Shown one piece after another: positions 15,713 through 27,703 of a stretch of DNA of 64,000 nucleotides. Source of the stretch: an uncultured Spirochaetaceae bacterium (GTDB lineage Bacteria > Spirochaetota > Spirochaetia > Sphaerochaetales > Sphaerochaetaceae); NCBI GenBank assembly GCA_944389145.1, contig CALXLH010000022.1, positions 1 through 64,000 on the forward strand. Direction: 5' to 3'. Every line of letters begins with the position of its first letter. The first letter of the stretch is position 1. The translations under genes were made by a program, and so were the position numbers. The notes beneath the pieces are model-generated. The model worked only from the letters and a program-made list of their open reading frames with translations, was not told where the DNA came from and searched no databases.

Positions 15713-15765
15713 CCGATTCACAGCCTGCCGCGCTTTTGCTATCCTTGCGGAAAGGAGTATCGCTT

Positions 15766-16506
15766 ATGGTTAGAGTCGCGATCTGCGATGATCAGCAAGA
15801 GTATCTTGCAGGCGTTCATGACGCTGTCTCCTCCTATTTTTCGAGGAGGCCTGAATTCTCCGTACGGATCTCTGACTTTTCCTCTCCGACACGCTTCCTG
15901 GAAGAGCTTGGACGTTCATCCGGCTGGGATATCGTGGTGCTGGACATATGCCTGCCGGGAATGCTTGGCACCGATGTGGCGAGGGAGATACGTCGCCGCC
16001 ATGACAGGACCGAGATCATCTTCATCTCCATCTCGCGCGATTACGCTATCGATGCCTTCTCCCTCAAGGCTGTGCATTATGTGGTAAAGCCATTTGCACA
16101 GGCCCAGCTTGATGAGGCGCTGGATAGGGCGATGGCCTCGTTCGAGGAGAAGAACATCAGGAGGCTGCTGATCAATATCGGGAACGGAGAGGTGCAGAGC
16201 GTCTCCATCGATAAGATCCTCTACATAGAGAGCCAGGGATACCGTAGGGTTGTCCATACGGCAGAGGGACTGTATGAGGAGGTGAAGGACACCCTTTCCC
16301 GTATGCAGGAGGAGCTTGATTCCATCTCCCTAGGCCAGTTCATCCAGCCTTACAGGGGGTACATCGTCAACCTTGATGCTGTGCGAACCGTTGCTTCTGA
16401 TAGGATCTTCCTCAATAATGGTGAGTTCATCCTGATAAAGCGGGGAGACTTCCGCCGCATACGCAGCCTGCTCTTTGCCTGGTCGTTCGGCAACGGCCGC
16501 CATTGA
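15766..16506 (+). CDS. LytTR-family response regulator
   Basis: This 246-residue regulator has an N-terminal receiver domain (acidic pair D8-D9, phospho-acceptor D60 in VVLDICLPG, Lys in VVKPF near 105) and a C-terminal LytTR DNA-binding domain from about 135 (ILYIESQGYRRVVHTAEG, then QPYRGYIVNLDAV). The ATG at 15766 has AAAGGAG 8 nt upstream. A promoter TTCACA-17-TATCCT lies at 15717-15745. No sensor kinase is adjacent, so it is an orphan. The next transcription unit is the fimbrial locus, which makes it a candidate regulator of that locus (inference from position only). Confidence 0.88.
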   Translation: MVRVAICDDQQEYLAGVHDAVSSYFSRRPEFSVRISDFSSPTRFLEELGRSSGWDIVVLDICLPGMLGTDVAREIRRRHDRTEIIFISISRDYAIDAFSLKAVHYVVKPFAQAQLDEALDRAMASFEEKNIRRLLINIGNGEVQSVSIDKILYIESQGYRRVVHTAEGLYEEVKDTLSRMQEELDSISLGQFIQPYRGYIVNLDAVRTVASDRIFLNNGEFILIKRGDFRRIRSLLFAWSFGNGRH

Positions 16507-17068: not shown

Positions 17069-17803
17069 ATGATGAGGGCAAGGAAGGCCTTGGCCATCGC
17101 TTTGTGCATGGCTTTGGCTATCGCTGGGCTGTCAGCTTATCAGCTTTCGCCGCTTAACGTTACCTATGACCCTACCGGAGCCGGTAGTGCCAAGGTCTAT
17201 ACGATCGTGAACGACTCTGACTCTCCGATAGCCATCGAGGTCCGGGCGGAACAGAGGATCGTCGATATCGACGGCAACGAGGCGAATCAGGACGGATCCG
17301 CATACTTCTCCATACAGCCTAGCCGCATGATCATACGTCCGGATTCCACTCAGCTCGTAAGGGTTCAGTACCGAGGCCCGAGCACGGTGACCCGTGAGCT
17401 TTCCTTCCGTATCATCAGCGAGCAGATCCCGATGCCGACAGGCGCGCAGTCAGATGAGGGCGGCCAGATGATATCATTCCTCTTCGTCTATTCGACAAGC
17501 GCGTACGTACGCCCCTCCCGCGTTGTGGAGAGGGTTGAAGGAGACGCATCCGTCAATGAGGAGGGGAAGCTTGAGGTGGTCCTCTCCAATACGGGAAGCG
17601 TCCATCAGATGCTCAATTCCCTTGCTGTCACCGTCAATGGGGATGATGGCTCCTCCTATACCCTTTCAGGAGAGGAGCTGCAGCCGCTTGCCGGACAGAA
17701 TCTCCTCACTGATTCCAGGCTAAGGACGATCCTCGGGCTGCCTGATGCGCTCAGCGGCGCATCTGCGTTCTCGGTAGATCTTGCATACGATTTCGAATAT
17801 TGA
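17069..17803 (+). CDS. PapD-like periplasmic pilus chaperone
   Basis: This 244-residue chaperone-usher pathway chaperone holds unfolded pilus subunits in the periplasm by lending them a beta-strand. The signal peptide (MMRARKALAIALCMALAIAG) ends LSA. The N-terminal Ig-like domain shows LSPLNVTYDPTG, KVYTIVNDSDSPIAIEVRAE, FSIQPSRMIIRPDSTQLVRV, QYRGP and RELSFRIISEQIP, the order seen in archaic (CsuC-like) chaperones. A second domain follows from about residue 160. The ATG at 17069 has AAAGGGGG 10 nt upstream; the frame is open further upstream, but that would translate the G tract. It is the first gene of the fimbrial operon. Confidence 0.85.
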   Translation: MMRARKALAIALCMALAIAGLSAYQLSPLNVTYDPTGAGSAKVYTIVNDSDSPIAIEVRAEQRIVDIDGNEANQDGSAYFSIQPSRMIIRPDSTQLVRVQYRGPSTVTRELSFRIISEQIPMPTGAQSDEGGQMISFLFVYSTSAYVRPSRVVERVEGDASVNEEGKLEVVLSNTGSVHQMLNSLAVTVNGDDGSSYTLSGEELQPLAGQNLLTDSRLRTILGLPDALSGASAFSVDLAYDFEY

Positions 17804-17821
17804 GCTGCTCAGGCGCAGACT

Positions 17822-20800
17822 ATGGGACGGTTGGGTGTGATAGCGGTTGCAGTGTGGGTATCTGTGGTGGCAGTCATGGTGCTTGCACTGCTGCCTGGCA
17901 TGGGAAGCAGGATTCTCCATGTCATGATGCCGCATGCCTCAATAGCCATCCTGGTCCTTGCGCTTATGACGATGATGCTCCTCTGCAGCTGGAGCAGCGC
18001 TGAGATAGTACCCCCAGGGACGGAGGTCGTGATTTCATCTGCAGATGACACGGCCTCCTCCCATTACATATATGATAGCACCGTTAGCGGAAGCTATCCA
18101 CAAGGCAGGGCAGGGACGGACGCAGAAAGCATCCTTCTTCCGATCGAGTTCTCCGATTTCCCGCCTCTCGTTCCATCCAGGGCACCGGAGGATTTCATCC
18201 GCTTCCTTTCGATCAGGGAGCGCATGAGAAGTGTGGCAAGGATGATTGATTTCATGGATTCCACGGAGCTTCCCCCAGAGATAGAGGACATCCTCCTTCC
18301 GATAGAGTTCTCCGACAGTCCTCCGCTAGTGCCAAGGACTCTGTCAGATATGCATGAGGCGATAGTGCTTCCTGCTGGTCAGATATATCCGGCTATGCCA
18401 GAATCCATGCAGGATGAGGAACCTGTTACCGAGAGTCAATTTGAGGTTCCGTCATATCTTATTTCTGGAAATGGCTCTGAAACAGCAATCGTGCCTGATC
18501 CTATCATTGCTGTAGATGAAGCTTCCGAACTGTCTGTTCCCGCTCAGGAGGAGGGCTCTGGCGGCTTAGATTCCATCGATGATCTCTTAGCGGGCCTGAC
18601 TGAGGAGGAGCGTGCATTCTGGTCTGCCTTCTATATTGCAGGCGAGGATGAGATAGTGCTTGCTGATGGCTTGTACTATATGGATCTGTATATCAATGAT
18701 TCATTTACCGGTACCGTCGGCGTAACGATTCTCAACGGAGAGCCAAGCCTAGACAGAGGAGACCTTGCCGGTTATCTACGTGATACGATTACCGATGAGG
18801 CCTTTGACAGGATATTTACCTATTCAAGCGATGCGATTGCCTTGAGCTATCTTGATAGCATCGGTATCCGTACCTCGTTCAACAGCGAGAGTTATGAGGT
18901 CAGGATCTTCTTCATGCCAGAGGATATGCCTATACAGATTCTCAGCCTGACAGGCGGAATGAGTGCAGGACGACGTCGCTCAAGGCCTATCGCGAATGGG
19001 ATTAATCTGGAACCTGCCGTATTTGCTGTCGAGTCAACATACAATCTCACGGGACGTGTTCCGAACTTCCGGAATGACCGCTGGCTGAATAACATGACAT
19101 TCACGTTTTCGTCATCGAATCATGCCAGGCTCTATGATCTCCATCTGGATTTCAATTACTACATGAATTTCGGAGTCGGTAGATTCCTGTTCAATTTCGG
19201 TTCATACAGATTCTATTATGATTTTCCTGATGAGATGATCAGGCTTTCCTTCGGCAATGTGTCATCAGATCTTCTTAGCCCTGATGGAACGTCCGTGGGC
19301 GTAGAGTTCGAGAAGAGCTATGCATATGCTCCTTCTGGGTATATAAGGCCAAGCCATTATGAACAGCTTATCGTCATCGAGAAGCCTTCGGAGGTCGAGA
19401 TTTTCAACGAAGGCCGTTCCATATTCCATCGTACGCTTGATGTAGGAACATACAGGCTTCGCGATTTCATTCTCTATTCAGGTGCGAACAGGATCACTAT
19501 CAGGGTGACACCTCTTGATGGTTCCCTTGTTCAGGAAATTGATATGGATTTGCTGTACTCTGGCTCGCTTCTGGCTCCTCATGAGGTATATTATGGAGCG
19601 TCCCTTGTCACGGGCCGCAGGGTAGTGAATTCTTCTTCGCAGAAGGACAAGGGCAAGCTGCGCCTTCCTATCTGGGGAGGAAGGAGCCTTGAGTATGACC
19701 TAAGGGATTGGACGCTTTCCTCGTTCGTCAGGGCTGGCCTTACTCCTACGCTTACTCTCGATACCACTGTCGCGATTCAGAATAATCCTACGGATCTGGC
19801 TTCATTCCGTCCTAATGCCAGGATGGCCGCTGAGCTTATACACGCGAGCTTCCTTGGTACTACCAGATACCTCTTTAATGTCTCTGAGCGTACCGATGAG
19901 AACGGCACATGGCAGATGCCAGGCTTCTATGCGAGCATTGGCCATCAGATTTCGACGGATTGGCAAAGCCTGAGCTCTGTGACGATCACAGGCAGCTATT
20001 ATTCTCCAAGAGAGCTGGGAATCGATGGCCGCCATCGCTTCTCTCTCAGCGGAGGACTCTCTGGCCGGGTCGGGATAATGAGCTGGAGCGTGAATGCCTC
20101 AGGTTCGATTTACTCTGATATCATCAAGGAGAGTGCCTGGTATCTTTCCTCATCCCTTAGCTTCTCCCTTTCCCGGAATGTATGGCTTACCGCTTCCGGA
20201 ACCATGCAGGGAGACTTCAGCTCCGCGCCTCAGTTCAGCGGAAGGATCTCCGCATCAATCAGGTTCGGACGCACGAATACGAGCATGACGCTCAGCGATA
20301 CCACGTCGTATGCTACGTTCAGGTATTCTGATAACAGGCATTCATTCACGATCGGGGCAGATACGGGCAGATTCGATGATTTCAATCGGTATGGCTTCGA
20401 TGCTGATTACGCATATTCTGGTGATTATATCAACGCCTCGCTTGGACTGGATGCCGGTTCATCGTTCAATACCATCGGAGCTGACTTCCGTCTTAGCACG
20501 GCGAGCGTGTTTGCTGACGGCCTGATGGCATTCAATTCCCATGTTCCTGTGAACTATCTGCTTATCAGCCAGAAGGGAGCGCTGAAGGATAATCATATAT
20601 CGATCGGTTCTCCGGGCAGCAGCGTTGCTGACAGGATGGATTCATTCCTGGGCGTCTCTCTTTATGAAGGGCTTTCCGCTGGAGGTTATGATGACAGCTT
20701 CATCGTCTACAGCGAGGGTGAGAATGCCTTTGCCCCTCTGGTGATGTACCCGGTGAATATCCCTTCATCCTCAAGGCGCGGGTATGTGCTTCGGCTCGAT

Positions 20801-21205
20801 GCTCCGAATACCTATCCTGCCTCCGGAGTCGTTACGTTGCCGGATGGGAATCTGTGGCTCAATGGCTCTTCTCCGATCTATTCGATAACGATCGAGGATG
20901 ATGAGGTGAGGACCGAACCTACCGATGAATATCTCTTCACCGATAGCGATGGGCGTTTCGTTACCCAGACACTTGAGCCTGGAACATATGGCTTTGATGT
21001 CATGTATGACGGCGACTGGATACTTATGATGTTCACGATACAGGATCTTGCAGACAGTATCGGATGCATACAGCTTGTGAATCAGGGCAGCTCATCCATG
21101 GATCTCAGGCTCCCTGAGGTCTATTCCTCATCGATCATGTTCACTTTTGATCAGGCAATATCTTCTGATGCCTTCTTTGATCTGCTCTATGGAGGTGCTG
21201 CATGA
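17822..21205 (+). CDS. Chaperone-usher outer-membrane usher, large variant
   Basis: This is a usher-like protein of up to 1127 residues, which would secrete and order the pilus subunits across the outer membrane. A usher-type N-terminal domain lies near 285-380 (YYMDLYINDSFTGTVGV; YEVRIFFMPEDMP). A plug/barrel stretch with VEIFNEGRSIFHRTLDVGTY and RLRDFILYSGANRITIRV lies near 520-570. A long Tyr/Ser-rich barrel follows, with a C-terminal domain (TDSDGRFVTQTLEPGTYGF). It is longer than usual because of a ~230-residue N-terminal extension in which ILLPIEFSD-F/S-PPLVP occurs twice (about 100-114 and 159-173). Start choice is uncertain: 17822 is nearest the chaperone stop, but 17924 would give a clean signal peptide ending CSWSSA. 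Confidence 0.75.
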   Translation: MGRLGVIAVAVWVSVVAVMVLALLPGMGSRILHVMMPHASIAILVLALMTMMLLCSWSSAEIVPPGTEVVISSADDTASSHYIYDSTVSGSYPQGRAGTDAESILLPIEFSDFPPLVPSRAPEDFIRFLSIRERMRSVARMIDFMDSTELPPEIEDILLPIEFSDSPPLVPRTLSDMHEAIVLPAGQIYPAMPESMQDEEPVTESQFEVPSYLISGNGSETAIVPDPIIAVDEASELSVPAQEEGSGGLDSIDDLLAGLTEEERAFWSAFYIAGEDEIVLADGLYYMDLYINDSFTGTVGVTILNGEPSLDRGDLAGYLRDTITDEAFDRIFTYSSDAIALSYLDSIGIRTSFNSESYEVRIFFMPEDMPIQILSLTGGMSAGRRRSRPIANGINLEPAVFAVESTYNLTGRVPNFRNDRWLNNMTFTFSSSNHARLYDLHLDFNYYMNFGVGRFLFNFGSYRFYYDFPDEMIRLSFGNVSSDLLSPDGTSVGVEFEKSYAYAPSGYIRPSHYEQLIVIEKPSEVEIFNEGRSIFHRTLDVGTYRLRDFILYSGANRITIRVTPLDGSLVQEIDMDLLYSGSLLAPHEVYYGASLVTGRRVVNSSSQKDKGKLRLPIWGGRSLEYDLRDWTLSSFVRAGLTPTLTLDTTVAIQNNPTDLASFRPNARMAAELIHASFLGTTRYLFNVSERTDENGTWQMPGFYASIGHQISTDWQSLSSVTITGSYYSPRELGIDGRHRFSLSGGLSGRVGIMSWSVNASGSIYSDIIKESAWYLSSSLSFSLSRNVWLTASGTMQGDFSSAPQFSGRISASIRFGRTNTSMTLSDTTSYATFRYSDNRHSFTIGADTGRFDDFNRYGFDADYAYSGDYINASLGLDAGSSFNTIGADFRLSTASVFADGLMAFNSHVPVNYLLISQKGALKDNHISIGSPGSSVADRMDSFLGVSLYEGLSAGGYDDSFIVYSEGENAFAPLVMYPVNIPSSSRRGYVLRLDAPNTYPASGVVTLPDGNLWLNGSSPIYSITIEDDEVRTEPTDEYLFTDSDGRFVTQTLEPGTYGFDVMYDGDWILMMFTIQDLADSIGCIQLVNQGSSSMDLRLPEVYSSSIMFTFDQAISSDAFFDLLYGGAA

Positions 21206-21951
21206 TAAGGAAGCTAGGTACTTTCGTCTCGCTCTTGCTGATATCTGCCATTGCTCTCTGCGGAAGCAGCGTGTTTCCCGAGGGAATGGACGAGAATGCC
21301 TCCAATGTCCTCAATATAAAGGCATACAAGATAGGAGATGTCGATGGCGTGAGCGTCGTGATAACAGACGCTCTCTCTGAGTCTCTTGATACCGTGGACC
21401 TTGGCGAGAAGGAAAGCATCGATGAGATTGTCGTCGATAACTACATCGATTCGCTTTTAGGAGATACTTCAACATCAATCATGGATGAGGCGTTTGCTGA
21501 GCATATCGTGTTCTCTTACAGGGTCATCGGGAATGAGACGGGCAATTATTCGCTGTCTCTTGATTTCTCTGCCCTTACCCTTGCCAATGGTACCGATATC
21601 ATCGCGACGAGCTATGATCTGGGTAATCTCTCTTATTCCTTTCCCGAGTATACGTCCAGTACGTATACGGAGACAGGGAACAGCACTGAGATCAAGGATT
21701 CCTCCTCGATTGCGAATGTGGATACAGCCAAAGCGCCAGGGAAGCTTTCCTCATACTGGAAGGTAGTTAGCCCGAGCGGCTCAGAGACGACAGTGAGCGG
21801 AGGCCAGAGGATACCCACCCATGTGTGGGTCCATAGGGGTGCTATAGCGATGACGGTGAATAGCACAGAATATCTTTCGACAGGTGACGATGCTCCTGGC
21901 ATCGGAGAATACAGGGCGACGGTACGCGTCATCCTGACGGATGGGAACTGA
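21202..21951 (+). CDS. Secreted fimbrial subunit candidate 1
   Basis: This 249-residue secreted protein has a signal peptide (RKLGTFVSLLLISAIALCGSS). It is rich in Ser/Thr/Ile/Val as expected for an all-beta pilin. It ends GEYRATVRVILTDGN, matching the shared C-terminal strand pattern of this cluster (aromatic, then alternating hydrophobics). Its start overlaps the usher stop (ATGA), so it is translationally coupled to the usher. Its larger size and first position suggest a specialised subunit such as adaptor or terminator; that is inference. Confidence 0.6.
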   Translation: MIRKLGTFVSLLLISAIALCGSSVFPEGMDENASNVLNIKAYKIGDVDGVSVVITDALSESLDTVDLGEKESIDEIVVDNYIDSLLGDTSTSIMDEAFAEHIVFSYRVIGNETGNYSLSLDFSALTLANGTDIIATSYDLGNLSYSFPEYTSSTYTETGNSTEIKDSSSIANVDTAKAPGKLSSYWKVVSPSGSETTVSGGQRIPTHVWVHRGAIAMTVNSTEYLSTGDDAPGIGEYRATVRVILTDGN

Positions 21952-21955
21952 TGAT

Positions 21956-22573
21956 ATGAAGAAGGCTGCAACGATCCTCATCCTTATATTCCTTGCCCTA
22001 GGAGGGATATCTTCGGCTCCGATAGAGGTGGCGCATGATTCCTTCACGATCCAGGCTGGATATGGTGCTGTGCAGGAGGTCTCATTCCACGAGATTCCTG
22101 CCCAGTCATATTCGTATATCGCGGGGATGCCATTCAACATCGAGGAGCAGTTCGTCCAGTATGGGCAGACGGAGAACGGCAGGCAGATCGCAACCATAGA
22201 TATGCTCTCTAATCAGCCGATGAAGCTGATCTTCAACGGTGAGCAGATGATGCATGAGAGTGAAGAATCCACGCCTCTTGATTACATCATTACGATTGAA
22301 TACGAGGAGGGCAGGTTCAGCAATAACAGCATCGTCGAAGGAGATTCAAAGACATTCACGTTCGACAGCCGTACAAGCGATGCCGAGCTGATACTCGGAG
22401 AGGATGCTGACGCAAATACATTCATCGGCTCAGTGGATGGCCTCGTGTACTTCATGTTCACCCGTAAGTCCTCCAGCGTGATAGCAGGAGCAGATGATTC
22501 GACGCTTCCTCCTGGAAATTATGGAGCGCGTGTCTGGGTGACGATTGAACCTCTTGAAGGAGGTACTGTATGA
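21956..22573 (+). CDS. Secreted fimbrial subunit candidate 2
   Basis: This 205-residue secreted protein has signal peptide KKAATILILIFLALGGISSA. The mature part is beta-rich, with YIITIEYEEGRF and a C-terminal GNYGARVWVTIEPLE that fits the cluster's terminal-strand pattern. The ATG at 21956 is used because it begins the signal peptide; an in-frame ATG five codons upstream overlaps the previous gene. It overlaps the next gene by 4 bp. Confidence 0.6.
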   Translation: MKKAATILILIFLALGGISSAPIEVAHDSFTIQAGYGAVQEVSFHEIPAQSYSYIAGMPFNIEEQFVQYGQTENGRQIATIDMLSNQPMKLIFNGEQMMHESEESTPLDYIITIEYEEGRFSNNSIVEGDSKTFTFDSRTSDAELILGEDADANTFIGSVDGLVYFMFTRKSSSVIAGADDSTLPPGNYGARVWVTIEPLEGGTV

Positions 22574-23922
22574 GAAGGGTATTCTCAATTATTGCGTTGC
22601 TTATCAGCTGTATATCAAGCATCACTGCCGCATACGTAGGCGTCAATCCTAGCGTCGGTGGCTTCAACATTGACATGGCAAGCTGGGATTATCAGGGAGG
22701 CACTAATTGGAGTGGAGCGGAGGTTTCCGGCGCAGGCTCTGCCAATAGTTATTCCTATGAGCAGATGGTAGGCATAGGTGGTGTTTATGAGATGGAAGTT
22801 CCTCTCGATCAAACATTTACTGGGCGTGATTATATATGGAGTCAGGCGGATAGTAATAACAAGATGACAATCTCTGCATCTTGTCCTAATGGATTCTATT
22901 TCGTGTCCGCTTCTAATCCATCAGCGCGGCGTCCATTCAATCTTGTCATTGTCCTCAAGACCCACCATCAGGAGAATCCTGGATTAGTGAAGAGTTCAGC
23001 CAATGGAGGTAGTGCCATTATCACTCTGGGACAGGGAGGCGCCATAAATTCAAAGGAAATTGGATATTGGGATTATAACCTCGTGAGTTCAAGACCAGAA
23101 AATTTTACAACAACTCTTGTGTGGGAGGATTCGGATAGAAGTTTTCGCTACCAGTATATGTGGTTCGATGTCATCCTTGAACTTCCGATTGATGATATAA
23201 CCAATACTGGTCTGCTTACTGCCGATGGCAGGGTCTACAATCTCGTTGAGGCGGATGATTACAGTGCTATCGTGACGCTGAGCATTGATTGGAATGGACA
23301 GCATACGGAAGTTACCATTCCGATGTCTGGACATTATTCAATCAATGATGGTCGGCAGAGCATGGCAAGCCTTGTGGTAAGGCCGCGTGCGGCTGCTTCC
23401 AACCTCGATATAAAGAACATGGCAGGGGATCCCCAGACTGTTGCTGATATAGACTTTATGTCAGAGGTATATTCTGTGGATTATGAGAGATACCGTAATG
23501 GGATCAGTAATCCTACGGCTCCTTCTGGTAGCTACAGGATTTTCCTGTCGGCTTCTAACGATCCGAACGATTCAAACTCCACGTTCCTGCTGGAGCATTC
23601 CTCTCGCAGTCCATTGGATGCTCCTTCGCCGTATAACACTATTGAGTATACTGCTACGCTCAGCGGATACGATGGGCCTCTTTCTGATTCGAACAGGCGT
23701 TATCTTACTGAGACGTTCTATGGTAATGAGGCGATATCAGGGACGAATGTTCCCGGTGTGCTGGTTGAGAGCGACAGCCATTCAGATACCGGCGCTGATA
23801 TCCAATACGCGCAGTTCACGGGAAGCATTGATGTGACTATCAGCGAGCCTGATACGCCGATCATGCAGCAGGGGAGATATGTCGATGAGATATACATCCA
23901 TGTCGTTTCGACAGGGGGATAA
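22570..23922 (+). CDS. Large secreted subunit, possible tip adhesin
   Basis: This 450-residue secreted protein has signal peptide RRVFSIIALLISCISSITA. It is about twice the size of the other subunits and begins its mature part with a Gly/Ser/Trp/Tyr-rich segment (SWDYQGGTNWSG). It ends GRYVDEIYIHVVSTGG, the cluster's C-terminal strand pattern. A two-domain layout of binding domain plus pilin domain would make it the tip adhesin, as with other chaperone-usher tips. The receptor is unknown. It is translationally coupled (ATGA) to the preceding gene and is the last of the first subunit block. Confidence 0.55.
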   Translation: MRRVFSIIALLISCISSITAAYVGVNPSVGGFNIDMASWDYQGGTNWSGAEVSGAGSANSYSYEQMVGIGGVYEMEVPLDQTFTGRDYIWSQADSNNKMTISASCPNGFYFVSASNPSARRPFNLVIVLKTHHQENPGLVKSSANGGSAIITLGQGGAINSKEIGYWDYNLVSSRPENFTTTLVWEDSDRSFRYQYMWFDVILELPIDDITNTGLLTADGRVYNLVEADDYSAIVTLSIDWNGQHTEVTIPMSGHYSINDGRQSMASLVVRPRAAASNLDIKNMAGDPQTVADIDFMSEVYSVDYERYRNGISNPTAPSGSYRIFLSASNDPNDSNSTFLLEHSSRSPLDAPSPYNTIEYTATLSGYDGPLSDSNRRYLTETFYGNEAISGTNVPGVLVESDSHSDTGADIQYAQFTGSIDVTISEPDTPIMQQGRYVDEIYIHVVSTGG

Positions 23923-24053
23923 GGAAGGGAATTGGCCTTGGTGATGCGAGTCAGTCAGGGAAGAGATAGAGGGTTCGGTGCCGTTGCCGGATATCGTGTC
24001 CTTAGGAGGATACAACGGGTGGGAAATATATATCGATCTATAAGGAGGACGAT

Positions 24054-24656
24054 ATGAAGAAGATTCTTATATTGATGGTTGCCATGATGGTGATCGGAGG
24101 GATGGTGTTCGCAACAGAGCCACCAGTAGGAACCGGAAAGGATACGGGAACAGATGCAGAGGCTACTCTTGTTGCAAAGCTTGATCTGAAAAATGCTGAT
24201 AATGATTTGATTGAAGTCGGATTCTCTGCTGATGCTGTTTCTGGTGATAACGTATCAACAGTGGCAAGCCCTTCTACATCGCTGGACATGGATACCGACA
24301 TTAATGGTGAGAAGACGCATAGTCAGGATGTTTATGCCTACTGGATTATCCGTTCATCTTCTAATCTTGATGTAAAGCTTTCTCTTACAGATGGCCTGAC
24401 TGGGTTGGATGATGAGGCAACAATCAGTGTTGCCTGGAATGCGGCTCTTTCGGACTATGCCGGAGAGGCTGGAAAGGAAGAAACCGTATCTATTGCAAAT
24501 GGTTCCAACGGCGTGATTGCTGATCATAATGGAGCAACTGATTATGCTAGTACGGGAAGTGTTAAGCTTGCTCTTACTACGGATGGTTTTAGCGCATTGA
24601 CAACGGCTGGTACCCTTTATGGTACTGTAACCCTTAATGTCGTTGCGGGTAATTAA
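24054..24656 (+). CDS. Probable major fimbrial subunit
   Basis: This 200-residue secreted protein has signal peptide KKILILMVAMMVIGGMVFA followed by TEPPVGTGKDTGTDAEATLV, a flexible polar segment that could act as donor strand. It ends GTLYGTVTLNVVAGN. Three features point to the major pilin: a strong Shine-Dalgarno (AAGGAGG), separation from the previous gene by 131 bp, and an intercistronic hairpin right after the stop. Codons are visibly U-ending (GCT, GTT, GGT, GAT) compared with the upstream genes. The role is inferred. Confidence 0.6.
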   Translation: MKKILILMVAMMVIGGMVFATEPPVGTGKDTGTDAEATLVAKLDLKNADNDLIEVGFSADAVSGDNVSTVASPSTSLDMDTDINGEKTHSQDVYAYWIIRSSSNLDVKLSLTDGLTGLDDEATISVAWNAALSDYAGEAGKEETVSIANGSNGVIADHNGATDYASTGSVKLALTTDGFSALTTAGTLYGTVTLNVVAGN

Positions 24657-24668
24657 AAATCTTTTTGT

Positions 24669-24689
24669 CCTGCCTCTTTATGAGGCAGG
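24669..24689 (+). terminator. Hairpin after the probable major pilin gene
   Basis: CCTGCCTC, loop TTTAT, GAGGCAGG is a perfect 8-bp stem 12 bp after the stop. No T-run follows, so it probably protects or partly terminates the upstream message, raising the major subunit over the following minor ones. Confidence 0.6.
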
Positions 24690-24705
24690 GCATCGTTGAG
24701 AGAAG

Positions 24706-25305
24706 ATGAAGAAGCTTGTTTTGTCATTGATATTCCTTATGATGCTCTCTGATGCGTTCGGGGTTAATCCTTTTGTCTTTGATTCTTCGCAGACAGAAGA
24801 GGGTTTCCCGGAGGAGGGGGGTATCGCTGATTATCCTGTATATTGGGATCTTTCGAATGTAGCGGGGCTCGTGTCTTCGGGAGAGGCTTATTTCAATATC
24901 GATGCGCAGGATAAGGATGAGGAAGGTAATCTCGTACTGTCTCCATCGACTGTCAGCTTCGAGGGTGGAACGTATTATGTTGGTTCCGGTACTGTTGAGG
25001 CTGCTTGGAATATCAATGCGTACAAGGCAAGCGTGATGCTTACCGTGAGTGATATGATGACCGGTGATGATACAGCCCAGACACCGTTGCTCTGGTATGT
25101 CTCATCCAGTGATTCGGCAGGGCAGTCCTTTACTATCGGAAGCGGTGATTCCGGGGTATCTGCGGTCATCTATACCCATGATCCTGAGAAAGGCTATCAT
25201 CAGGAGGGAAGCCGTGAGATACGCATCATGACAGAGGATTACTTCAATAAGCCCCGTGCTGAGTTCTCAGGTACGCTGACGCTGGAGGTCAAGGATCTGG
25301 CATGA
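24706..25305 (+). CDS. Secreted fimbrial subunit candidate 3
   Basis: This 199-residue secreted protein has signal peptide KKLVLSLIFLMMLSDAFG. It contains ISVAW-like alternation in VEAAWNINAYKASVMLTVSD, similar to the AYWIIRSSSNLDVKLSLTD segment of the major subunit, so the two look homologous. It ends AEFSGTLTLEVKDLA. It overlaps the next gene by 4 bp, beginning a chain of coupled subunit genes. Confidence 0.6.
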   Translation: MKKLVLSLIFLMMLSDAFGVNPFVFDSSQTEEGFPEEGGIADYPVYWDLSNVAGLVSSGEAYFNIDAQDKDEEGNLVLSPSTVSFEGGTYYVGSGTVEAAWNINAYKASVMLTVSDMMTGDDTAQTPLLWYVSSSDSAGQSFTIGSGDSGVSAVIYTHDPEKGYHQEGSREIRIMTEDYFNKPRAEFSGTLTLEVKDLA

Positions 25306-25844
25306 AGAAGATACTGGCTCTTATCATTATCATTACAATATCTATCCCTCTCTTCGCCGCGCTTGAAGGGGAAACTTCCGCAACGGTAAACCTTGCGCTT
25401 GACCCTAGTGCATCATCCCGCTTTGAGATGGGATTCTCAGGAGGAGAGGTTAATACCATGTATGATTCTCCTTCAGGTATAGAGGGGAACAGGATCGAGC
25501 TTCAGACTTCGCTCAGCGATGATGGTACCACCATAAATGGATTGAGCGAGGTTGCCTGGGTATACTGGAAATACATCTCCGTAAGCAGCGTCGATATTTC
25601 ATTGACTATCGAGGATGCTCTCCAGGGGGGCGGTGATACGATACCGCTGACTGTTTCGATAAAGGATGGGACCGACTCCATAACAAGCGGAGATGACAGG
25701 TCTTTGCTTATAGGGAGTACCGCTACGAATACGCTGCCATCTGTAGGAAGCAGGAATCTCAGGATCGAGGCATCTGTTCCTGTGGATGATTTCCATGCAG
25801 TTGAATATAGTACGAGACTTATCCTTACCATGAAGGTGTCATGA
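25302..25844 (+). CDS. Secreted fimbrial subunit candidate 4
   Basis: This 180-residue secreted protein has signal peptide KKILALIIIITISIPLFA. The mature region keeps the family course: ETSATVNLALDP, then EVAWVYWKYISVSSVDISLT and a final VEYSTRLILTMKVS strand. The VYWKY/SLT segment aligns by eye with the same region in the 24054 and 24706 products. Coupled to both neighbours by ATGA-type overlaps. Confidence 0.6.
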   Translation: MKKILALIIIITISIPLFAALEGETSATVNLALDPSASSRFEMGFSGGEVNTMYDSPSGIEGNRIELQTSLSDDGTTINGLSEVAWVYWKYISVSSVDISLTIEDALQGGGDTIPLTVSIKDGTDSITSGDDRSLLIGSTATNTLPSVGSRNLRIEASVPVDDFHAVEYSTRLILTMKVS

Positions 25845-26395
25845 TGAGAAAAGCATATCTTATTATCCTTATGATATTCCTTGTCCTTCCATTATCGGCT
25901 GAGGATGATATATCGACGATGGTTGTCTATGACGCGCCTTCGACGCGTGTGGAGTTCACGGTAGGATTGACTCATAATATCGGTTTCTCCTCAAGGGATT
26001 TCAGCGGTAGCACGATAAAGCCATCCGAGGAATATGAGATCACAGGAGATACTATTGCCTTTGATAATATCAGCGAAGACTTCATGAGCTATACCACGGA
26101 TATCTTCTATTTCTATCTGCAGGTATTCACTACCGAACCTGTGAAGGCGGTGATAGGATCGCATCCTGCATTATCTTCAACCGGTGCTTCTTCCGTCCAT
26201 TATACGAATCTTGGTTATTCAGGATATTCTGGAAGTGCCATGACCACCGAGGCTGTGCTGGTTGATGAGACGGATGTTGATACTACCGTTCCCCGGTCAT
26301 ATTTCCGGGCATTGCAGTTCTCTGTACCGGTTGATGCCGTGACGAATAACACTTATTCATCATCGCTTATGGTGACTGTCTCATCGATAAACTGA
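25841..26395 (+). CDS. Secreted fimbrial subunit candidate 5
   Basis: This 184-residue secreted protein has signal peptide RKAYLIILMIFLVLPLSA. The middle segment TDIFYFYLQVFTTEPVKAVI corresponds to the tyrosine-rich strand of its neighbours. The C-terminus NTYSSSLMVTVSSIN fits the common strand. Its start overlaps the previous stop; the next gene begins 9 bp after its own stop. Confidence 0.6.
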   Translation: MMRKAYLIILMIFLVLPLSAEDDISTMVVYDAPSTRVEFTVGLTHNIGFSSRDFSGSTIKPSEEYEITGDTIAFDNISEDFMSYTTDIFYFYLQVFTTEPVKAVIGSHPALSSTGASSVHYTNLGYSGYSGSAMTTEAVLVDETDVDTTVPRSYFRALQFSVPVDAVTNNTYSSSLMVTVSSIN

Positions 26396-26404
26396 GGAGT
26401 ATTC

Positions 26405-27031
26405 ATGAAAAGTATGTTCAAGCGTTTCCTGGTCCTGCTCTCAATGTCTATCCTCCTTATCGGAAGTGTTGCGGCTGATGATACCGTTTACCCGCAGTTC
26501 GATATCGTGCTGAATAAGGTTGGAGAGACAGATTATTATTTCTCGGACTTCGGCCATGAGACACGTAACCCTAGGATAGTGATAACGGATCAGAATAAGA
26601 CCGCACCATATACTTATGATTTCTCGTTCGTCTGGTCGATATACACTAACTCCAAGATATCCCTAATCATGAATTTCTATGCGACTGAAGCAGATGTTTC
26701 AGATGGATATGGATTCATGCTTCGGCATACGGAGAATAACTCTATCGGAATAAATTATGATGTCAAATATAATAATAGCAGTAGTATTCCGGTAGATGGC
26801 ATTTTGGCTACCTATTCTGAAGCTCCAGAGGGGCAGGGCGTGGGAATGTTGTTATCAAACAGACAGATTCCCTTGCTGCAGAATGTGCAGGTTACCCCAT
26901 TGGCAGGTAACAGCGGACATGTTGATCTTACGGTCTCCATTGATCCCGCAAGGCACGCTGAGAATCACGAGTCATTCACTACGGGGCAGTATACAGGATA
27001 TATAGAAGTGCAGATCCTTACAGGGAATTAG
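26405..27031 (+). CDS. Secreted fimbrial subunit candidate 6
   Basis: This 208-residue secreted protein has signal peptide KRFLVLLSMSILLIGSVAA. The mature part has YDFSFVWSIYTNSKISLIMN, again the cluster's internal strand, and ends GQYTGYIEVQILTGN. It is the last intact subunit gene on this strand. The same GQY-x-G-x-I ending recurs in the remnant at 27473-27703. Confidence 0.6.
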   Translation: MKSMFKRFLVLLSMSILLIGSVAADDTVYPQFDIVLNKVGETDYYFSDFGHETRNPRIVITDQNKTAPYTYDFSFVWSIYTNSKISLIMNFYATEADVSDGYGFMLRHTENNSIGINYDVKYNNSSSIPVDGILATYSEAPEGQGVGMLLSNRQIPLLQNVQVTPLAGNSGHVDLTVSIDPARHAENHESFTTGQYTGYIEVQILTGN

Positions 27032-27051
27032 GCAGGGCCTGTCTTTCTTGG

Positions 27052-27432
27052 TTATTTCCGCATGGTGAGATAGCTGGTACTGCTGGTGTTGCTCACCTGA
27101 ACCTCCACGTATGATCCAAGGTTCTGGAATACAAGGTATGAGGTTCCGCTGAAATCGAGGTAGAGTATGTAGCGGTCGGAATCTGTTTCTGCCCAGCCTC
27201 CGTTCTGATAGGCCATGCTCATCAGATTTATCTCTTCGTATTCCCATTCCGTCCTTGTTATCGTGATATCCTCTCCTGATATCTCGCATTCACCTATCTG
27301 AAGGTTATCTTCGTCTAGCAGTCTCCAATTTCCTTCGAGCCAGCTTGGAGGTGGTGTAATGATGAACATGCTGCAGCATATAACGCTTAACAGCATGAGT
27401 AATGTCGTCATGGCATTGATCGTTTTTCTCAT
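27052..27432 (-). CDS. Small secreted or lipoprotein-like protein, unknown
   Basis: This 126-residue protein begins with a hydrophobic segment (NAMTTLLMLLSVICCSMFII); the double cysteine could serve as a lipidation site, but the lipobox is poor. The mature part, WLEGNWRLLDEDNLQIGECE then DRYILYLDFSG, has the look of a small lipocalin-like or beta-barrel domain. It is inverted relative to the fimbrial genes and separates the last intact subunit from a subunit remnant, so it probably arrived by rearrangement. Confidence 0.5.
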   Translation of the reverse strand: MRKTINAMTTLLMLLSVICCSMFIITPPPSWLEGNWRLLDEDNLQIGECEISGEDITITRTEWEYEEINLMSMAYQNGGWAETDSDRYILYLDFSGTSYLVFQNLGSYVEVQVSNTSSTSYLTMRK

Positions 27433-27472
27433 GGCTGGATTATAGCATCCTGATCAGCTTAAGGCTTGGCTT

Positions 27473-27703
27473 ATGCGTAGGTATAGCGGATATTATCTTA
27501 CCTCCTCTGGTGATCTGACTCTTGATGCCAAGGCAGCTCTAGATCAGGCTTCCAGGACCATTACGTTTACCAAGAACGCCGGGGTGACCGTTCCTAATCC
27601 TATCGATGTTGATATCGTCTTCGATCTGGACCTGTATAAGGCAGGGGCGTTCGTGACAGGCCAATATAGCGGCCAGATCATAATGACGCTGGAGTTTGAC
27701 TGA
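27473..27703 (+). pseudogene. 5'-truncated fimbrial subunit remnant
   Basis: The frame gives 76 residues with no signal peptide or ribosome-binding site. It reads like the C-terminal part of a subunit: SSGDLTLDAKAALDQ, VDIVFDLDLYKAG and a final GQYSGQIIMTLEFD, closest to the end of the 26405 product. An in-frame stop lies just upstream. I read it as the 3' end of a ninth subunit gene whose 5' end was lost when the inverted gene at 27052-27432 came in. Confidence 0.55.

Follow-up and report, generated by a model that had tools for sequence, protein, structure and literature searches.

In the textbook view, ushers operate in the outer membrane and need no inner-membrane link, and known ushers begin with a cleaved signal peptide and carry no inner-membrane domain. 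TonB consists of an inner-membrane helix and, behind it, a periplasmic stalk rich in (Pro-Glu)n that reaches the outer membrane. Archaic chaperone-usher pili, such as Csu of Acinetobacter and CupE of Pseudomonas, occur in many phyla, and alternative pili (alpha, including CFA/I and ECP) have been described only from β- and γ-Proteobacteria (PMC9452303). In agreement with the original prediction, no chaperone-usher pilus of a spirochaete was described in the open-access literature searched. The locus analyzed here, part of a 64,000-nucleotide stretch of spirochaete DNA (the window), probably encodes a non-classical chaperone-usher pilus system with its usher anchored in the inner membrane. Its features are as follows:

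15736..16506, + strand: LytTR-type response regulator, a possible local regulator, peripheral to the locus (NCBIfam response-regulator matches)
17069..17803, + strand: PapD-type periplasmic pilus chaperone, 244 aa, with signal peptide (PF00345)
17822..21205, + strand: usher with predicted N-terminal membrane anchor, 1127 aa (AlphaFold model compared with FimD/PapC)
17837..17992, + strand: two predicted inner-membrane helices, usher residues 6-57 (6-24 and 39-57; hydropathy)
17993..18613, + strand: acidic, proline-rich periplasmic linker, usher residues 58-264 (model pLDDT <50 for 50-255)
18614..18946, + strand: usher N-terminal domain of the chaperone-binding type, about residues 265-375 (model alignment)
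19022..20536, + strand: usher beta-barrel with plug region, about residues 401-905 (model strands)
20558..21160, + strand: usher C-terminal periplasmic domains, about residues 913-1113 (model strands)
21202..21951, + strand: subunit s1 (signal peptide, C-terminal motif, single same-position orthologue)
21941..22573, + strand: subunit s2, start at 21941 or 21956 (33-row alignment, model)
22570..23922, + strand: large subunit s3, 450 aa, probably a tip adhesin with two domains
24054..24656, + strand: small subunit s4, possibly the major subunit (strong AAGGAGG ribosome site)
24706..25305, + strand: small subunit s5 (signal-peptide ORF)
25302..25844, + strand: small subunit s6 (signal-peptide ORF)
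25841..26395, + strand: small subunit s7 (signal-peptide ORF)
26405..27031, + strand: small subunit s8 (GxYxGY ending)
about 27446..27703, + strand: remnant of a ninth subunit, its C-terminal part without signal peptide, ending GQYSGQIIMTLEFD (translation)

The chaperone-usher locus at 17069-27703 is complete, running from chaperone and usher through s1-s8 to the ninth-subunit remnant, and the gene coordinates agree with the eight intact signal-peptide subunits and one remnant counted originally. The junctions had been said to overlap mostly by ATGA, which overstated the case, as such overlaps were found at only four of eight (usher/s1, s2/s3, s5/s6 and s6/s7), that is, half. Intergenic gaps of 131 and 49 nt lie ahead of s4 and s5, respectively. 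Six other loci have homologues of the LytTR-type regulator upstream of their chaperone. As consensus scans for promoters and terminators performed at chance level, no promoter is claimed; no Rfam match was identified anywhere in the window.

The original proposal that this spirochaete has a chaperone-usher locus is borne out by a PF00345 match, a structural match of the usher and recurrence in many independent genomes. A search of the chaperone against the PapD family, suggested with that proposal, gave 32.4 bits for PF00345 (cut-off 23), and 20 of 20 same-genus orthologues matched the same profile at E<=0.01. In same-genus loci the chaperone is 56-79% identical. A fast first-pass PF00345 search of the own genome returned no match, and this was treated as a miss, the protein itself passing with hmmscan. 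The description of the chaperone as archaic and CsuC-like is not established. As in archaic systems, an arginine is kept at the position of CsuC Arg89 in D1, the anchor of the subunit carboxylate (PMC4654587): Arg114 aligns with it and is invariant in all 20 orthologues. However, the position aligned to the second CsuC anchor, Arg174 in D2, carries either Met, as in the window chaperone (M181), or Leu, with an invariant His nearby, and the nearest solved chaperone by sequence is the alternative EcpB (E 0.0017), followed by archaic CsuC. The alignment with CsuC covers Arg89 and Arg174 and ends before the third anchor residue, Tyr196 in D2.

For the usher, no match to PDB sequences was obtained with the window protein, and its profile retrieved only membrane or low-complexity proteins, so that a fold comparison was needed. 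In a Foldseek search of the PDB, the best 18 matches of the AlphaFold model were all FimD or PapC (E 1.5e-30 to 2e-14), with an alignment of about 900 columns at E 1.5e-30 and the next match at only 8e-06. FimD and PapC also occupied ranks 1-15 of a VIA comparison (Z 17.8-20.9), including 700 aligned residues with 3rfz_B, at 11-16% sequence identity. The outcome of the suggested profile search was mixed: PF00577 scored 14.5 bits in the window protein, below the Pfam cut-off, but it was found at E<=0.01 in 5 of 20 orthologues (best 7e-06), besides the model match to FimD/PapC. The modeled layout is that of the classical ushers, with residue 278 onward aligning to PapC/FimD residue 25 onward, a barrel matching the FimD and PapC translocation pores 3ohn, 3fip and 2vqi, and alignments with FimD extending to model residue 1092 (FimD 834); a DGxYYMDLYIN motif was noted by eye in the N-terminal domain. 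The model, which matches FimD and PapC much better than any other barrel, supports the assignment of the product of 17822-21205 as an usher with N-domain, plugged barrel and C-domains.

The C-termini of the divergent subunits follow a common pattern, well above chance. Of 185 subunit-like ORFs taken from the window together with same-genus loci, 84% have an aromatic-xxx-hydrophobic-x-hydrophobic motif near the end, as compared to 7% when C-termini are shuffled (no more than 11% in any of 200 shuffles) and 8% among control ORFs, with the consensus P/A-x-G-x-Y-[ST]-[GA]-x-[IVL]-x-[LVI]-x-[VLI]; small archaic subunits have a similar G-x-Y-...-hydrophobic C-terminal strand. The aromatic residue had been attributed to all nine ends in the window and is found in eight, s4 (GTLYGTVTL) having Leu instead. 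The motif suggests a shared strand that is predicted to be recognized by the chaperone. An alternating hydrophobic stretch was observed at 66% of mature N-termini versus 33% after shuffling. Orthologues of s1, one per locus in a conserved position, are 23-36% identical. The s2 model (pLDDT 85) has a pilin-like strand order beginning at residue 40, with residues about 20-38 outside the modeled fold, and aligns from residue 37 to the pilins CfaE, CfaB, CsuA/B, Caf1 and FimG. These VIA matches are modest (Z 5-8 to several pilins, intermixed with unrelated beta proteins), the alternative CfaE and CfaB ranking before CsuA/B among the solved chaperone-usher subunits matched, and Foldseek returned no match of the s2 model at E<=0.001. 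For s1-s8, no Pfam match to the SCPU (spore coat U) domain was found, which is weak evidence of absence for such divergent proteins. A large subunit of the s3 type (417-565 aa, pilin-type C-terminus) occurs once per locus, third after the usher, and the GxYxGY ending of s8 is similar to that of the last subunit in several other clusters.

Instead of a long rod, the many different subunits could build a coat on the cell surface, either short and capsule-like or polyadhesive, a possibility that we consider real though the less likely one. The many divergent subunits with no obvious single major one would fit such a coat, as would the polyadhesin function of thin flexible chaperone-usher fibres (PMC9452303). 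On the other hand, the large s3, always at the same place, resembles a tip adhesin, and s4 combines a strong ribosome site with a gap of its own, although both are still compatible with a coat.

Returning to the anchored-usher pilus, the helices at the start of the protein have to be considered. All full-length family ushers examined begin with 1-7 transmembrane helices, called by hydropathy only, and a long acidic, proline-rich linker. In the window usher, the AlphaFold model places the helices at residues 4-22 and 29-57. All 20 same-genus ushers (20/20) carry 2-7 hydrophobic helices by hydropathy, and among full-length ushers from the family's other genera, each of the 18 examined has at least one helix together with the linker. 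The genus linker averages 195 aa, with 25% D+E and 9% P as compared to 12% and 3% in the core. This N-terminal helix-linker module was a point missed in the original prediction. Four loci of other spirochaete families encode ushers of 787-956 aa without the module, three of which pass the Pfam Usher cut-off; a sub-threshold match to the TcfC E-set domain of alternative pili was noted in the signal-peptide ushers of L130 and L133 only.

It is conceivable, but we regard it as unlikely, that the pilus is an ordinary one, the N-terminal helices being an export signal only, the usher cut free and the linker a spacer. In the window usher, translation from an internal ATG (MMPHASIAILVLALMTMMLLCSWSSA) would make the last helix a plausible cleavable signal peptide with WSSA-E at its end, the linker evolves fast and is poorly conserved, and the ushers of most other family genera have a single helix. 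However, the helices number 3, 5 or 7 in most ushers of the genus, with K+R per residue of 0.263 in loops predicted inside versus 0.068 outside and codon-level constraint across the helix region (pN/pS 0.23-0.5 in close pairs). Judged by eye, the hydrophobic core of the single-helix ushers is long and an obvious cleavage site is missing, and at the related L048 contig, which has a very similar chaperone, several helices lead straight into the shared EIVPP junction. Ribosome-binding sites precede the long usher start in many orthologues. Positive-inside bias and codon constraint point, at the level of sequence, to a real inner-membrane anchor, which would remain uncleaved.

On balance, we lean towards the usher being one protein across both membranes, made of an inner-membrane domain, a TonB-like stalk and an outer-membrane usher. 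In this genus the pilus would then be rooted mechanically in the inner membrane, rather than depending for its hold on outer membrane and wall only. Such an anchor and stalk would be an addition to the archaic usher, and the anchor would also distinguish the family from alternative pili. The likeness to TonB is one of layout only; for instance, one family usher (L138) contains runs of PEPEPEP, but the spirochaete protein ends in a beta-barrel usher rather than the TonB C-terminal domain, and there is no evidence of energy coupling. The genus appears to lack flagella and peptidoglycan-making enzymes. A simple rule by which the multi-helix anchor follows peptidoglycan loss was not supported, as Mur ligases and a PBP transpeptidase are present in genus g29, where one of the ushers (L120) nevertheless has three helices, and wall-making relatives carry a one-helix anchor.

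In the proposed mechanism, subunits would be exported by Sec, capped by a strand lent by the chaperone, which would also grip their C-terminus, and handed by the chaperone to the usher N-terminal domain. The outer-membrane barrel would then link them through donor-strand exchange and extrude them. The tip would probably be occupied by the large s3, and the shaft would consist of the small divergent subunits. The usher would keep its N-terminal membrane domain of 1-7 helices and the roughly 200-residue acidic, proline-rich stalk crossing the periplasm, which would tie the assembly pore to the inner membrane. We infer that the pilus is made and displayed on the surface, that its subunits are joined by donor-strand exchange in this order, and that it serves adhesion.

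Loci in relatives were found by a chaperone profile scan of genome contigs, a single-protein usher scan of such contigs giving no match. Throughout Candidatus Ornithospirochaeta the cluster has the same order, namely chaperone, usher, s1, s2, large s3 and finally the small subunits, of which there are up to about 13, and loci with 8 to 16 different subunits and the chaperone and usher first differ from the archaic ones. Most genomes of the genus carry the cluster, as do many related genera, and related ushers were identified in most sampled genera of a GTDB family that is probably Sphaerochaetaceae. A phylum-level sample gave the chaperone in 15 of 296, fewer than expected from the class-level usher sample, probably owing to sampling and a different query, and no prevalence figure is drawn from this. 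Although Proteobacteria are the group best known for chaperone-usher pili, a contaminant or misbinned Proteobacterial fimbrial locus is refuted to near certainty because the locus recurs in many genomes, including named Spirochaetales and Ca. Ornithospirochaeta contigs, with gene families divergent from all solved Proteobacterial ones.

If true, a family-wide inner-membrane-anchored usher would be an unreported architecture in a secretion system that is among the most thoroughly studied, with a natural comparison between anchored ushers in one spirochaete family and unanchored ones in sister families. The view that spirochaete appendages are normally periplasmic flagella fails here, with flagellin in 0 of 139 sampled genomes of the family, and has to be replaced because the family is without detectable flagellin and widely keeps the pilus genes. 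Members of the same genus inhabit guts, that of the chicken among them, which makes the pilus a candidate colonization factor.

The stretch at 17069-27703, read in the original prediction as a complete chaperone-usher fimbrial locus, almost certainly encodes a chaperone-usher pathway, and its open reading frames (ORFs) lie at the positions originally assigned to them:

17069-17803, chaperone, a secreted protein of 244 residues
17822-21205, usher, 1127 residues
s1 to s8, eight ORFs whose N-termini resemble signal peptides, s8 ending at 27031
about 27446-27703, remnant of a ninth subunit, without a signal peptide

The genes had been described as mostly overlapping by ATGA; such overlaps exist, but only half of the junctions, four of eight, have them. 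On the reverse strand, a small ORF for a secreted or lipoprotein-like product (27052-27432), with weak homologues at two related loci (L085 and L032), separates s8 from the truncated ninth subunit and may be a trace of whatever disrupted the latter. Upstream of the locus, a LytTR-type response regulator (15736-16506), homologues of which precede the chaperone in six other loci, is a possible regulator of the pilus genes.

The PapD-like nature of the chaperone is borne out by a Pfam PapD_N match above the cut-off (32.4 bits versus 23), and the same model is matched at E<=0.01 by all 20 orthologues from the genus. The closest NCBIfam models are the fimbrial chaperones StbB and BcfB, both far under cut-off, and a profile comparison with solved structures identified EcpB (E 0.0017) and CsuC (E 0.007). 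In CsuC the subunit carboxylate is bound by Arg89 (PMC4654587), with which Arg114, invariant in 20 of 20 orthologues, aligns in the profile alignment; the position of CsuC Arg174, however, is occupied by Met or Leu, with the nearby His179 being invariant instead. On this evidence the chaperone looks non-classical, but the archaic, CsuC-like class suggested for it is not assignable.

For the usher-like protein, the sequence alone stays under the Pfam usher cut-off (14.5 bits versus 27.1), whereas an AlphaFold model that drew on 20 orthologues is confident in its core and resembles FimD/PapC. FimD and PapC account for the top 18 Foldseek matches of this model in the PDB (E 1.5e-30 to 2e-14), ahead of a porin as the first non-usher match (E 8e-06), and a second look with VIA-align gave only FimD or PapC at ranks 1-15 (Z 17.8-20.9), with up to 715 residues aligned from the N-domain through the C-domains. 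The usher family is linked by sequence as well, since three of four examined signal-peptide ushers from other spirochaete families, which were retrieved with the profile of the window-type usher, pass the Pfam Usher cut-off (33.8, 52.1 and 60.3 bits).

The C-terminal pattern said to be shared by the subunits recurs in 84% of the 185 subunit-like ORFs taken from the window together with loci of the same genus, as compared with 7% (maximum 11%, 200 shuffles) after shuffling each C-terminus and 8% in control ORFs. The consensus is P/A-x-G-x-Y-[ST]-[GA]-x-[IVL]-x-[LVI]-x-[VLI], and Tyr is the aromatic residue in 97% of the pattern-matching ORFs. Gene order in same-genus loci is chaperone, usher, s1, s2, s3 (417-565 residues) and then small subunits, with a total of 8 to 16 subunit-like ORFs per complete-looking cluster; s1, s2 and s3 each have a single orthologue (about 23-36% identity), and the small subunits are divergent. 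Judging by its position, size and C-terminus, s3 would be a two-domain tip adhesin. The mature N-terminus contains an alternating hydrophobic stretch, of the kind that a donor strand would need, in 66% of subunits versus 33% after shuffling. The s2 model (pLDDT 85) aligns with CfaE, CfaB, CsuA/B, Caf1, FimG and others from residue 37 (Z 5 to 8), and about residues 20-36 fall outside the modelled fold. These pilin alignments, leaving the N-terminus out, agree with the proposed incomplete Ig-like fold, but unrelated beta proteins score nearly as high as pilins, and Foldseek returned no match for the s2 model at E<=0.001; incomplete Ig folds are thus supported by the modelling but not settled. 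The product is probably a long pilus on the cell surface, less likely a coat or some other kind of fibre. One related locus (L045, genome G024) encodes two chaperones, which share 56% and 44% identity with that of the window, and its subunits are split around both genes.

Roughly the first 260 usher residues do not resemble a normal signal peptide. Among 20 same-genus ushers, two hydrophobic helices were counted in three, three in eight, five in seven and seven in two, followed by a linker averaging 195 residues with 25% Asp+Glu and 9% Pro, versus 12% and 3% in the usher core. Lys+Arg are enriched in predicted cytoplasmic loops (0.263 per residue versus 0.068 in predicted periplasmic loops), which places the linker on the periplasmic side. 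Codon comparison of the closest informative pairs gave a pN/pS of 0.23 to 0.5 for the helix region, arguing that it is translated and constrained, and a ribosome-binding site is visible directly before the long usher start in many orthologues. The window usher could instead start at an internal start codon and carry an ordinary signal peptide; as it is readable in this way when taken alone, the case for an anchor rests on the family. All 18 full-length ushers examined from other family genera have N-terminal helices and a similar linker, mostly with one helix (three at loci L120 and L122), and by eye the single-helix ushers have no clear cleavage site. One of these 18 ushers (L138) contains TonB-like Pro-Glu runs. 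On a related contig (L048) whose chaperone is 84% identical, several usher helices lead into the shared EIVPP junction. Ushers at four loci of other spirochaete families (787-956 residues) are without the helix-linker module. Permanent anchoring of the usher in the inner membrane appears fairly likely. The ushers of L116-L119, L124 and L129 have a recurrent Cys immediately after their single helix (e.g. WTCFHQP, KTCAGR, RTCFIHP), possibly a lipid or disulphide site, and one other-family usher (L131:6706-9576) has a different extra N-terminal region ahead of its usher domain.

Named contigs with the chaperone belong to Candidatus Ornithospirochaeta or to Spirochaetales and Spirochaetaceae metagenome genomes, and the usher profile has matches in 94 of the 395 class genomes sampled, most of them from the window's own family, which is probably Sphaerochaetaceae. 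Genome G137 carries two separate loci, L120 and L121; the usher has three helices in the one that is near the window's type and a single helix in the other. The premise that spirochaete appendages are normally periplasmic flagella fails for this family: flagellin was detected in none of its 139 sampled genomes, versus 44 of 60 sampled across the class, and a pilus here would therefore be no addition to such flagella. Omp85 was found in 23 of 24 genomes from the genus, consistent with cells that have an outer membrane. According to PMC9452303, chaperone-usher pili of the archaic class span a wide range of phyla, so that a spirochaete pathway belongs to a known type. Word searches of the open-access literature found no report of chaperone-usher pili in spirochaetes or Sphaerochaeta, or of an usher with an inner-membrane anchor, a silence that is a weak sign of novelty.

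The PBP transpeptidase domain (PF00905) was found in none of 36 genus genomes (that of the window and 35 relatives). The Mur ligase domain (Mur_ligase_M) mostly has one match per genome in the genus, versus 4-6 in wall-making relatives, and in the genome of the window that match is FolC (283.8 bits versus 162.7). The genus may thus be without peptidoglycan; several other family genera resemble it in these wall-gene absences. Despite the missing Mur ligases and PBP transpeptidase, the genus retains a divergent protein of FtsW/RodA type (SEDS; G000:C23:58933-59970 in the window's genome, locus L137), scoring about 105-130 bits versus 260-310 in wall-making relatives. If the genus is indeed without peptidoglycan, an inner-membrane tether would be mechanically sensible for a pilus, but the anchor predates that loss, as relatives with a full Mur ligase set have it too.
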